64,000 nt of DNA. It comes from Flavobacterium sp. HJJ. GTDB lineage: Bacteria > Bacteroidota > Bacteroidia > Flavobacteriales > Flavobacteriaceae. The stretch lies in assembly GCF_015351475.1 (NCBI RefSeq), contig NZ_JADKPR010000008.1:62001-126000 (forward strand), written 5' to 3'. Made by a program: the position numbers and the translations under genes. Shown here in pieces: positions 13,270 to 27,751 of the stretch (position 1 is its first letter; every line of letters starts with the position of its first letter). The notes under the pieces are model-generated. The model searched no databases and was not told the DNA's origin. It saw nothing but the letters and a program-made list of their open reading frames with translations.

Positions 13270-13316
13270 CAAATTTATCTATTAAAGCGGGTAAGAGTAT
13301 CCTGTTGTATACTGCT
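13270..13316 (-). promoter_or_regulatory. PUL operator plus -7 box of the DUF4861 operon
   Basis: On the minus strand two tandem decamers AGCAGTATAC and AACAGGATAC (13297-13316) are followed after exactly 19 bp by TAAATTTG (13270-13277), a perfect Bacteroidota -7 box. Spacing and orientation match the four other copies in this window. The distal half-site is degenerate. The start codon is about 290 bases downstream, unlike the other copies. Confidence 0.7.
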
Positions 13317-13344
13317 AACTAACTAGTTCCCTTTAATCAATAAA

Positions 13345-13668
13345 TTAATCCAGATGAAAAACTTCCTTTAACGAAGCCGAAAGCGGTGAATTATCAGGAT
13401 TCGTCTCCATAATATCCCCCATGTATGCCCACCATTTTTTCACAATTGGATGATTTGGCAAAAATGCTGTATCAAAATCTGGACTTAATTTTTGAACTGC
13501 AAAAAGAATAAGTGTTTCTTCATCCAAAAAAATACTATAATCCTGAATTCCTGATTCAGACAGCAGGGATGCTAATTCTGGCCAGATTTCGTCATGTCTT
13601 TTTTTATATTCTGCTTCAAAACCTTTTTTTAATTTCATTTTGAAAGCATTTCTATAGGTGTTTTTCAT
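13345..13668 (-). CDS. rhaM: L-rhamnose mutarotase
   Basis: This 107-residue protein has the RhaM/DUF718 alpha-beta barrel features: FKMKLKKGFEAEYKKRHDEIWPEL near the N-terminus (His catalytic region), IQDYSIFLDEETLILFAVQ and the family signature WWAYMGDIMETNPDNSP. It interconverts the alpha and beta anomers of L-rhamnose in the cytoplasm, feeding rhamnose catabolism. It lies 2 bases after the GH43-like gene and ends the operon SASA esterase, GH43-like, rhaM. It is the clearest sign that rhamnose is a product of this locus. Rhamnose isomerase, kinase and aldolase genes are not in the window. Confidence 0.93.
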   Translation of the reverse strand: MKNTYRNAFKMKLKKGFEAEYKKRHDEIWPELASLLSESGIQDYSIFLDEETLILFAVQKLSPDFDTAFLPNHPIVKKWWAYMGDIMETNPDNSPLSASLKEVFHLD

Positions 13669-13670
13669 TT

Positions 13671-14684
13671 TTATGGCTGTTTTAAATTTATATAAACAGG
13701 ATTATCCCTGTGACAAACAATTTCGTTATTCTCTAATTCTAATTCGGCTGCTTGAATCGAACTTCTTCTGGTCTGGTAATTATCTATTCCTTTATTTTCG
13801 GGAGTTCTTCCTGGATGTGTAAAATAAAAAATATACGCTTTACCATTATTTACTACTACATCTGCATGTCCTCCAATAACCTTGTCATCTGTTCCTGTTC
13901 CGGGAATTTCAAGTATGTTTTTTGGCTGACGTTTCCAATTAATAAAATCATCAGACGAATATACACTCAATCCGCGCCAAATATCACAAATCATCCAGTT
14001 TTTGCCTTTCCACTGAAAAACTTTTGGCCCTTCGCCACGCTCTTTTACAACTTTTTTACCAGCATCTGTCCAATTATATAAATCAGGACTGTCTGCATAA
14101 TAAATAGATTTTCCGTCATTTTCATTATTGTAATACATGCGCCAGGTTCCATTGGGCAATCTAAAAACAGAAGCATCTATACACCGCTCTGACGCTAATT
14201 TTAATTTTGATTCAAATTTCCAGTCTATTAAATTTTTACTCGTCAGATGAATAATAAAACGCGGATGGTACCAGTCTTCAAAAATCCCTGGAACAATCGT
14301 TAGATACATATGATACAAGCCTTTATTTTCAATAACATCTGGCGCCCAATGCGTAATTCCTGGCAATTTATAACCAATTTTACAAGTGTCTTTATAAACC
14401 CAATTCACTCCATTTGTTGATTCGGCGATTCCAATTCGAGTTCCGTGAACCCAGCTAATACCTTTGGCCGTTGAATCATTAGCCCTGCGATTGGTATAAA
14501 ACATGAACCATTTTTTCTGTTTTTTGTTCCAAACAATAACTGGATCTGCGGTTCCATCAAAAACAGGATCCCGAAACAATGGTTTACTGGCTAAATTCTC
14601 AGATTTTTGTGCTTCTGCAGAGAAACTAAAAATCTGAAAAAACAGAAATAACATCAACAAAAACCTTTTATTTAATGCAATCAT
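13671..14684 (-). CDS. GH43-type five-bladed propeller glycosidase
   Basis: A signal peptide (ending FSFSAEAQ) leads into a five-bladed beta-propeller of about 310 residues. The GH43-like catalytic trio can be placed: Asp in DGTADPVIVW (base), Asp in CIDASVF (pKa modulator) and Glu in GEGPKVFQW (acid). HWAPDVIENKGLYHMYLT is a typical propeller block. Related families (GH43, GH117) act on arabinose, xylose, galactose or anhydro sugars, so the substrate is open; RG-I arabinan or galactan side chains are plausible. It lies between a SASA esterase (15 bases upstream) and rhaM (2 bases downstream). Confidence 0.75.
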   Translation of the reverse strand: MIALNKRFLLMLFLFFQIFSFSAEAQKSENLASKPLFRDPVFDGTADPVIVWNKKQKKWFMFYTNRRANDSTAKGISWVHGTRIGIAESTNGVNWVYKDTCKIGYKLPGITHWAPDVIENKGLYHMYLTIVPGIFEDWYHPRFIIHLTSKNLIDWKFESKLKLASERCIDASVFRLPNGTWRMYYNNENDGKSIYYADSPDLYNWTDAGKKVVKERGEGPKVFQWKGKNWMICDIWRGLSVYSSDDFINWKRQPKNILEIPGTGTDDKVIGGHADVVVNNGKAYIFYFTHPGRTPENKGIDNYQTRRSSIQAAELELENNEIVCHRDNPVYINLKQP

Positions 14685-14699
14685 AACTGTTTTTCGTTT

Positions 14700-27200: not shown

Positions 27201-27447
27201 CTATTGTTTTTGTTCCTGTAAAACTAAAAACTAAAATGTCGCCCGTCTTGGCATCAATAGAATAATGTCCGTCAAAATCAGAACTTATTCCTTTTTTTAA
27301 TCCCTTAATCGTCACATTTGCTCCAGGAATTGGTAATCCAGTTGGGTCTGTAATTACTCCCTTTATGGCCTTATTCTGCGCATATGTTACCGTTTGTAAC
27401 AAAGCAAACAAAACCATAAAAACCCAAAGACTTGTTTTATTTTTCAT
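24280..27447 (-). CDS. SusC/RagA TonB-linked outer membrane transporter (pair 2)
   Basis: This is 1055 residues with a signal peptide ending VTYAQ, a CarboxypepD_reg-like domain (about 26-105), a plug ([18 protein letters not shown], then YVVDGVPL and [28 protein letters not shown]) and a C-terminal barrel ending VGF. It is a paralogue of the pair 1 SusC, with the plug best conserved. Role: TonB-dependent uptake of an oligosaccharide together with its SusD. Its regulated promoter lies back to back with that of the GH106 gene. Confidence 0.97.
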   Translation of the reverse strand: [1055 protein letters not shown]

Positions 27448-27478
27448 AAAAAGTTAAATATAGGTTAATATTAATCCT

Positions 27479-27525
27479 CAAAATTATTTATCATTATGAC
27501 GCTTACTATCCTGCAGTATCCTGCA
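27479..27525 (-). promoter_or_regulatory. PUL operator plus -7 box of susCD pair 2
   Basis: On the minus strand tandem decamers TGCAGGATAC and TGCAGGATAG (27506-27525) are followed after exactly 19 bp by TAATTTTG (27479-27486). The susC start lies 58 bases from the operator edge. Confidence 0.85.
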
Positions 27526-27704
27526 ACATGACTATGTTTTATTGTATAGAAATCCTTAATAAAAACAAATCTCTTGTTAAAATATTCATAATAAGTTGTT
27601 TAGGTGTTGTTAAGAATTATTCAAAAAAAAATATTTTTTTGAAATAATTTCATAAAACATTGATTACAAAAAAATAAAATTTTAAGAAAGTCTCAATTTT
27701 AACA

Positions 27705-27751
27705 AACAGGACGCAACAGGACACCTATTAAAGCACATAATTCTATTTTTA
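27705..27751 (+). promoter_or_regulatory. PUL operator plus -7 box of the GH106 operon
   Basis: Tandem decamers AACAGGACGC and AACAGGACAC (27705-27724) are followed after exactly 19 bp by TATTTTTA (27744-27751). It faces the opposite way to the pair 2 element, so about 180 bp of AT-rich DNA separates two divergent regulated promoters. The GH106 start is 70 bases from the operator edge. Confidence 0.82.

Follow-up and report, generated by a model that had tools for sequence, protein, structure and literature searches.

A tandem-decamer operator at Flavobacterium promoters and its probable GntR-family regulator of rhamnose-glycan genes

Five promoters in the window, that is the whole 64-kb stretch of Flavobacterium DNA analysed, carry one type of tandem-decamer operator at a fixed distance from the -7 box. 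They are likely to form a rhamnose-glycan regulon under a GntR-family regulator with a LacI-like sensor, which would activate transcription in place of the -33 element. We infer the DNA binding of the GntR protein, its inducer and the sign of regulation from sequence.

Operators in the window and the genes behind them

All five sites of the original prediction, each with two adjacent decamers, a 19-bp gap and a TAnnTTTR box, lie where it had put them and share one orientation relative to transcription.

27506-27525, minus strand: P1 operator TGCAGGATAC TGCAGGATAG, read from the window; exact match to the genome pattern
27479-27486, minus strand: P1 -7 box TAATTTTG, read from the window
22132-27447, minus strand: P1 unit, SusC-like (24280-27447) and SusD-like (22132-24234)
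21531-21550, minus strand: P2 operator TACAGGACAG TACAGGATAG, read from the window; exact match to the genome pattern
21504-21511, minus strand: P2 -7 box TAAATTTG, 19 bp from the operator, read from the window
16344-21473, minus strand: P2 unit, SusC-like (18324-21473) and SusD-like (16344-18299)
16259-16278, minus strand: P3 operator ATCAGGAGAG TACAGGACGC, read from the window and found by the whole-genome pattern scan
16232-16239, minus strand: P3 -7 box TATTTTTA, read from the window
13671-16202, minus strand: P3 unit, SASA esterase and GH43 (13671-14684)
13297-13316, minus strand: P4 operator AGCAGTATAC AACAGGATAC, read from the window and found by pattern search
13270-13277, minus strand: P4 -7 box TAAATTTG, about 290 nt from the first gene
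3566-12979, minus strand: P4 unit, DUF4861, GH105/88, PL22-like, GH28, sulfatase and GH115
27705-27724, plus strand: P5 operator AACAGGACGC AACAGGACAC, read from the window; exact match to the genome pattern
27744-27751, plus strand: P5 -7 box TATTTTTA, read from the window
27795-35079, plus strand: P5 unit, GH106, GH105/88, PL9-like and esterase-GH43

The operators are direct tandem decamers and do not form palindromes. The one at P4 is the weakest of the five, its first half reading CAGTA. The pattern CAGKAYN4CAGGAYN21TANNTTTR, with at most one mismatch, gives 5 matches in the 64-kb window, precisely the five sites; a random-sequence check speaks for the pattern as well, 100 dinucleotide shuffles of the window giving a mean of 0.00 matches and a largest count of 0. 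Pairs of CAGGA with a period of 10 occur four times in the window, and every other spacing from 8 to 39 at most twice. No known RNA family was detected under the sites by Rfam at the gathering threshold (positions 3000-36000).

The locus is one of pectin degradation, in which the P4 and P5 units would each form a single transcript. The first ATG of the SASA esterase behind P3 is at 16202; the mechanical ORF (14700-16247) begins above the -7 box. In a second species, the syntenic locus has sites before the esterase, GH43, the P1-type SusC/D pair, another SusC-like ORF and GH106. Conservation of every window site there fails for P2 and P4: allowing up to 5 mismatches reveals no site at the ortholog of the P2 SusC/D pair, and the region directly upstream of the DUF4861 gene is likewise without one.

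Sites across the genome and the family

The pattern extends past the window. Where five units of one locus had been proposed, the five sites proved real and the number too low, the genome having 13 promoter-like sites on five contigs. The genome scan yielded 6 exact matches, 9 at up to one mismatch and 29 at up to two, vs. 3 at up to two for the reversed control. A tighter motif gave 13 matches genome-wide and none in the control; one of them (C26:54025) lies inside a 726-aa ORF and was taken as chance and dropped, and the 13 promoter-like sites are the other 12 together with C3:101358 (2 mismatches). One promoter-like site precedes the operon for rhamnose catabolism, which lies 22 kb to the left of the window. 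A CAGGA pair near a GntR paralog (C5:179368) was dropped as lying in coding sequence.

Among 199 genomes sampled from Flavobacteriaceae, the exact pattern occurs at 78 places in 31 genomes, and its reversed control at none. When the gap was allowed to vary, it came out at exactly 19 bp in 78 of 91 rows, with 13 rows at the 26 alternative gaps (3 rows in all for the reversed control). The claim of one operator, one regulon and a fixed spacing is supported. The half-site is better written CAGGAYRS, as judged from 49 of the 78 sites; an alignment of these 49 also shows no conserved spacer bases able to serve as a -33 element. Some sites elsewhere have a third decamer upstream. Class-wide, 5 of 295 genomes have the motif, namely 3 Flavobacterium and 2 of the 286 from other families, and it is nearly restricted to Flavobacteriaceae. 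The targets have rhamnose in common (rha operon, GH106, GH78, PL11, PL28 ulvan lyase), and their annotations, which include rhamnogalacturonan lyase, rhamnosidases and ulvan lyases, are mostly those of rhamnose-glycan genes.

A candidate regulator of the GntR/LacI type

As had been predicted, no regulator was found in the window (30 of its 43 ORFs of at least 150 aa were scanned). The candidate is a GntR-family gene about 21-22 kb to the left (G000:C8:39843-40913), which diverges from the rhaT-rhaD-rhaI-rhamnulokinase operon and is separated from it by a region with the same operator. The N terminus of its product matches PF00392 (E 1.4e-11) and the AraR DNA-binding domain 4egy (phmmer E 8.7e-7). 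Pfam gives no second domain, and a sequence search of solved structures with the protein returned DNA-binding-domain matches only. The AlphaFold2 model (pLDDT 90.8) has LacI 1efa (E 2.9e-14) and RbsR 9ny7 (E 8.6e-13) as its best Foldseek matches. An N-terminal GntR winged helix followed by a C-terminal LacI-like sensor fold is thus predicted. F. johnsoniae CI04 also has an ortholog.

Orthologs of this protein (E<1e-120) are present in 42 of the 199 genomes, including 30 of the 31 with the motif; the 31st has a homolog at 7e-80. The co-occurrence has a Fisher p of about 9e-25, phylogeny being ignored. Twelve ortholog genomes are without the exact pattern; the loci of 9 of these were examined, and all 9 have a looser version, with 1-2 mismatches, no more than about 1.5 kb from the GntR gene. 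In the same family sample the motif also tracks rhaI, being present in 31 of 46 rhaI genomes vs. 0 of 153 others, so any regulator travelling with rhamnose catabolism would correlate.

A site lies within 1.5 kb of the GntR gene at 22 of 30 ortholog loci. Among the remaining loci that were re-fetched wider, 5 of 6 turned out to have a site within 2.5 kb; one wider locus (L164) has none. Among loci of named records fetched via the GntR gene, 75 of 80 have a site nearby. When loci were fetched on the motif alone, with 1.5 kb to either side, 6 of 29 contained a GntR-like gene of this subfamily. Operator columns in the 80 loci are mostly 95-100% conserved, vs. mostly 40-85% for the 30 bases upstream. 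In close relatives, the spacer of the rhaT promoter is conserved as well, so the footprint there does not single out the operator; the box of this promoter is TTATTTTA, one base off.

Proposed mode of action and its alternatives

A centre at -41.5 is the classical position of a class II activator. If the -7 box is taken to span -12 to -5, following a part of PMC9723704, the operator would extend from about -51 to -32 with its centre at -41.5, standing in for the -33 element. With start sites predicted from the -7 box, it lies near the class II position at an invariant distance. The earlier suggestion that the site covers the -33 region and serves an activator fits both these predicted coordinates and the fixed 19-bp gap. 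Two GntR DNA-binding domains would bind head to tail on two CAGGAYRS half-sites on one helix face, and since the operator would replace the -33 element, the bound GntR/LacI protein would act as a class II activator by recruiting RNA polymerase. The inducer may be L-rhamnose or a catabolic product of rhamnose. Such an inducer would act in the cytoplasm, so the first rhamnose freed from RG-I, RG-II or ulvan would raise all rhamnose-glycan loci at once.

It is also conceivable, if unlikely, that the GntR protein binds these sites but represses, with rhamnose relieving the repression. LacI and the described AraR are repressors, a protein at -51 to -32 can block polymerase, and box distances vary near paralogs of two other clades. 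The rigid 19-bp gap, however, is unexpected for a simple repressor, as is a spacer without conserved -33-like bases (49 of 78 sites).

AraC proteins bind direct repeats and activate, and the original prediction had named an AraC-type regulator or a hybrid two-component system (HTCS) as what binds the tandem decamers. Of the 35 HTH_18 matches in the genome, 9 fall in ORFs as long as an HTCS, and two HTCS lie near the site C32:24138. Period, linkage and conservation do not support this identification, and it was rejected as improbable. The decamers repeat every 10 bp, whereas the HTCS motifs described in the part of PMC3878776 used here, direct repeats from Bacteroides, have a period of about 21 bp. 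An AraC-like gene is found in 4 of the 80 loci fetched with the GntR gene and in 1 of the 29 fetched by motif, and the contig that holds both the window and the rha operon (C8) has no HTH_18 match. When the other 30 motif genomes were searched with the HTCS nearest a site, scoring up to 20 candidates in each, none gave a match at E <= 1e-200; this conservation check covered that one nearby HTCS among the AraC proteins of the genome. One motif genome (G163) has 5 sites yet only 8 HTH_18 matches.

An extended sigma-factor promoter element or -33 variant without a dedicated regulator would account for the fixed distance to the -7 box, but is very improbable given that within the family sample the motif occurs only in genomes with rhaI, that other families have it in just 2 of 286 genomes, that annotated targets are mostly rhamnose-glycan genes and that triple decamers exist.

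Paralogs and their half-sites

A broader reading, which we favour with less assurance than the regulon itself, is that a GntR/LacI subfamily in Flavobacteriaceae reads head-to-tail tandem decamers rather than palindromes, with a clade-specific half-site, its rhamnose member having become a class II activator through which scattered polysaccharide loci answer to a single monosaccharide signal in the cytoplasm. As part of this joint reading, the half-sites would be CAGGAYRS for rhamnose and hexuronate, CTRGTAGG beside aldose-epimerase genes and CAGAACGG beside sugar-kinase/xylose-type genes. All three patterns were derived from the same loci in which they were then counted. The CAGGA tandem is found near 22 of 43 Rha-clade, 6 of 6 hexuronate-clade and 0 of 43 Gal-clade genes. 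For the CTRGTA tandem the counts are 39 of 43 genes in the Gal clade and 0 of 43 in the Rha clade, and for the CAGAAC tandem they are 16 of 19 in the Xyl clade and 0 of 43 in the Rha clade. In the recognition helix, the residues that follow SRDTV are mostly EK in the Rha clade, FK in the Xyl and hexuronate clades and LM in the Gal clade. The other 21 of 43 Rha-clade genes have no site in the noncoding 1.3 kb tested; many of them are second copies of tandem pairs or lie in short loci.

Near Gal- and Xyl-clade genes, the TAnnTTTR box lies at varying distances. The mode of action is therefore not uniform in the subfamily, and the fixed 19-bp spacing is not supported as a property of the whole. 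In a sequence-blind tandem-identity scan of 89 paralog loci, gaps 15-19 form no more than a broad peak with 11-15 loci each, against a background of up to 10 loci at other gaps.

Comparison with described systems

The AraR subfamily of Firmicutes resembles the Flavobacteriaceae protein in its GntR DNA-binding domain and, as far as the model predicts, in its LacI/GalR sensor; AraR also controls sugar and glycan genes, according to the part of PMC4494728 used. The Flavobacteriaceae protein differs from AraR in its head-to-tail decamers and fixed promoter distance in place of the typical GntR palindrome, and in being a probable activator. Described GntR sites are mostly palindromes in the same part of PMC4494728, which counts against a GntR reading of tandem decamers. 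NanR, FarR, NagQ and MocR regulators are presented there with direct repeats and no palindrome; they belong to the FadR, HutC or MocR subfamilies, have other repeat sequences, and no fixed class II position is stated for them in that portion of the source (PMC4494728).

Bacteroides HTCS also have direct-repeat operators upstream of polysaccharide loci, but are AraC-type, and 25 of their 36 genes are found together with susC/D genes (PMC3878776, in the portion used). Bacteroides RhaR, which likewise serves rhamnose and rhamnogalacturonan genes, is set apart by its description in that portion as AraC-type, with a regulon reported as a single operon (PMC3878776); the reach of the Flavobacterium regulator appears to include both the monosaccharide operon and several polysaccharide loci far from it. 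The carrageenan regulon of Zobellia shares the family, the spread over several loci and the shared induction, but depends on the AraC-family CgrA, with no operator motif found in the part of PMC5698469 considered. In another flavobacterium, a rha cluster lies with pectin genes, and the portion of PMC5306329 consulted names no GntR regulator. Vibrio XylR, as portrayed in part of PMC12125979, does not apply as a parallel. A search of titles and abstract openings found no description of a GntR tandem-decamer operator in Bacteroidota, subscription literature being mostly outside its scope.

Concluding remarks

The usual account of how Bacteroidota regulate polysaccharide utilization invokes locus-specific sensors such as HTCS, SusR and sigma/anti-sigma systems. 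In this case, a single regulator of the monosaccharide type appears to command a sugar catabolism operon together with many distant pectin and ulvan loci, and, judging from sequence, it probably switches on the genes for rhamnose-containing plant and algal polysaccharides together. Paralogs with matched half-sites make the DNA code of GntR/LacI regulators directly testable. Flavobacteriaceae are a large and ecologically important family, and the 45-bp pattern offers a way to search any flavobacterial genome for genes of this kind, those acting on rhamnose glycans.

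Operator sites in the polysaccharide locus

Five promoters carry a tandem decamer (two half-sites of about CAGGAYRS) separated from a TAnnTTTR -7 box by 19 bp in every case, as originally predicted and as the sequence itself confirms.

Operators and -7 boxes in the window
21531–21550 and 21504–21511, minus strand: P2, SusC/D
27506–27525 and 27479–27486, minus strand: P1, SusC/D
16259–16278 and 16232–16239, minus strand: P3, esterase-GH43
13297–13316 and 13270–13277, minus strand: P4, DUF4861 block
27705–27724 and 27744–27751, plus strand: P5, GH106 unit

A single pattern with at most one mismatch recovers exactly these five sites in 64 kb and no others, and 100 shuffles of the window gave zero pattern matches. 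By Pfam, the locus is of the rhamnogalacturonan/pectin type, with two SusC/D pairs, GH106, two GH88/105, PL9-like and PL22-like proteins, GH28, GH43, GH115, a sulfatase, a SASA esterase and DUF4861. No regulator gene was found among the 30 scanned of the window's 43 ORFs of at least 150 aa.

Between the P4 operator and the DUF4861 gene (13121–13155, minus strand), a hairpin, AAACGCTA...TTTAGCGTT, is followed by eight T and resembles a terminator; P4 may yield a short RNA of ~110–150 nt or an attenuated leader. Its fold z-score is only -1.5, a pattern scan did not return it, and the related locus of a second species has no counterpart. At P3, the spacer ends (16240–16247) in TTGTCCTG, which contains an inverted CAGGACA core immediately 5' of the -7 box.

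The regulon across the genome

The window is positions 62001–126000 of contig C8 in a 5.05-Mb draft assembly, across which the full pattern gave 6 exact matches, 9 at ≤1 mismatch and 29 at ≤2, vs. 3 in the reversed control at ≤2. A tighter pattern gave 13 matches (reversed control 0), one of them within an ORF. The eight out-of-window sites are all intergenic relative to locally called ORFs.

Sites outside the window (contig:position) and the genes they precede
C8:39394: rhamnose operon (rhaT, rhaD/dehydrogenase, rhaI, rhamnulokinase-like, iron-sulfur oxidoreductase-like protein, GH28-type galacturonidase)
C3:69354: SusC/D pair
C3:101358: BNR_2 protein (two mismatches)
C3:114570: RuBisCO-like/sugar-acid kinase/racemase/symporter operon
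C3:119382: GH2
C4:111509: fasciclin-SusC/D
C18:92731: GH43
C32:24138: GH35

One regulon operon (fetched locus L078:2637-7282) encodes a RuBisCO-like protein, an SBD_N/NBD_C kinase, a racemase and an SBF symporter. It resembles apiose catabolism, which would suit RG-II use.

A GntR-family candidate regulator

The divergent neighbour of rhaT is a GntR-family protein of 346–356 aa (C8:39843-40913 in the studied genome), with one site in between; it is 72–88% (mostly 81–88%) identical to its counterparts in Flavobacterium records, which makes the genome most likely that of a Flavobacterium. In a family sample of 199 genomes from 198 genera, the exact pattern occurs at 78 places in 31 genomes (reversed control 0). 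GntR orthologs (E<1e-120) are present in 42 of the 199 and in 30 of these 31. The motif also tracks rhaI, found in all 31 and in 15 others, with no motif in the 153 rhaI-less genomes, so that the assignment is carried by linkage and not by co-occurrence alone. A site lies within ~1.5 kb of the GntR gene in 22/30 ortholog loci and within 2.5 kb in five of six loci re-fetched wider. Among 80 loci from named records fetched with the GntR gene, 75 have a site on the expected strand; operator columns are mostly 95–100% conserved, those of the 30-bp stretch upstream mostly 40–85%, and the spacer is conserved too among these close relatives.

The original prediction favored an AraC-type or hybrid two-component (HTCS) regulator. 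The HTCS nearest a site is unmatched at E ≤ 1e-200 in the other 30 motif genomes, and AraC-like genes occur in just 4 of the 80 GntR-gene loci and in 1/29 loci fetched by motif alone, vs. 6/29 with a GntR-subfamily gene. The GntR gene is the candidate reader of the tandem decamers, assigned mainly by its genomic linkage.

Its AlphaFold2 model (mean pLDDT 90.8) comprises an N-terminal GntR winged helix and, C-terminal to it, a larger alpha/beta domain, and its best solved-structure matches are LacI and RbsR; the predicted architecture is that of an AraR-like chimera. According to PMC4494728, typical GntR operators are palindromes, whereas those studied here are direct tandem decamers; direct repeats, as here, are described there for NanR, FarR, NagQ and MocR proteins.

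Promoter geometry and proposed mechanism

With the gap left variable, 78 of 91 rows fall at 19 bp and 13 are spread over 26 other gaps (reversed control 3 rows); some of the 13 represent the upstream decamer of a triple. PMC9723704 puts the TAnnTTTG box of a Flavobacterium at -12 to -5, which would place the 20-bp operator over -51 to -32, centered at -41.5. The spacer has no bases conserved across promoters (49 of 78 sites compared), and the rigid gap argues for contact of the regulator with polymerase. A center at -41.5 is class II activator geometry, and the bound regulator may act as such an activator, the choice of activator over repressor being the weakest step of the model. The inducer would be L-rhamnose or a breakdown product, judging from the genes. 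Two DNA-binding domains would be oriented the same way on the half-sites; to allow this, they would have to be joined flexibly to a sensor dimer with two-fold symmetry.

Paralogs and clade-specific half-sites

A tree of 125 relatives resolves supported clades and 14 proteins outside them, each clade having its own tandem decamer nearby. The clade labels are our own; each derives from the genes beside a single member, namely aldose epimerase, FGGY kinase, UxuA and KduI.

Tandem decamers near GntR genes
Gal clade: CTRGTA 39/43, CAGAAC 1, CAGGA 0
Xyl clade: CAGAAC 16/19, CAGGA 2, CTRGTA 1
Hexuronate clade: CAGGA 6/6, some triples
Rha clade: CAGGA 22/43, CTRGTA 0, CAGAAC 0
Outside clades (14 proteins): CAGGA 3, CAGAAC 1

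Since the patterns were defined on these same loci, the information lies in the zeros across clades. Where an exact box is present, its start and the second core are 27 bases apart (the 19-bp gap) in 15/15 measurements in the Rha clade and in 5/8 in the hexuronate clade, the other three fitting upstream units; in the Gal and Xyl clades the distance is scattered.

Loci L158, L159 and L163 contain triples, three CAGGAY units at 10-bp steps with the last two at the canonical distance, which precede hexuronate operons in L158 and L159 and a different gene in L163. Adjacent GntR paralog pairs, about 59–75% identical to the query, occur in several genera (L160, L161, L162, L118, L128), near rha genes in L160–L162, and possibly form heterodimers for unequal half-sites. 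The studied genome has four further paralogs (L146–L149), two of them near tandem decamers of other sequence (CTGGTA on contig C23, CAGAAC on C3).

Distribution and turnover of the regulon

In 29 motif-fetched loci, 29 of 30 sites are intergenic, the remaining one lying within a 98-aa ORF. First downstream genes, annotated for 20 proteins from 19 of these loci, encode PL11, GH78, GH106 (three), PL28 ulvan lyase (two), GH88/105, PL22, GH28 and GH5, besides SusC-type receptors (four), sulfatases (two), a fasciclin, DUF4861 and an NrtR/AraR-like regulator. Rhamnose is common to ulvan and rhamnogalacturonans. Class-wide, matches occur in 5/295 genomes, namely three Flavobacterium and 2/286 from other families.

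A second species of the genus has a syntenic locus (67–79% protein identity) with seven sites at ≤2 mismatches: two ahead of the esterase and one each ahead of GH43, a large ORF, the P1-type SusC/D, another SusC-like ORF and GH106. Its P2 SusC/D ortholog has no site even allowing five mismatches, and none lies directly upstream of DUF4861, so that individual promoters enter and leave the regulon.
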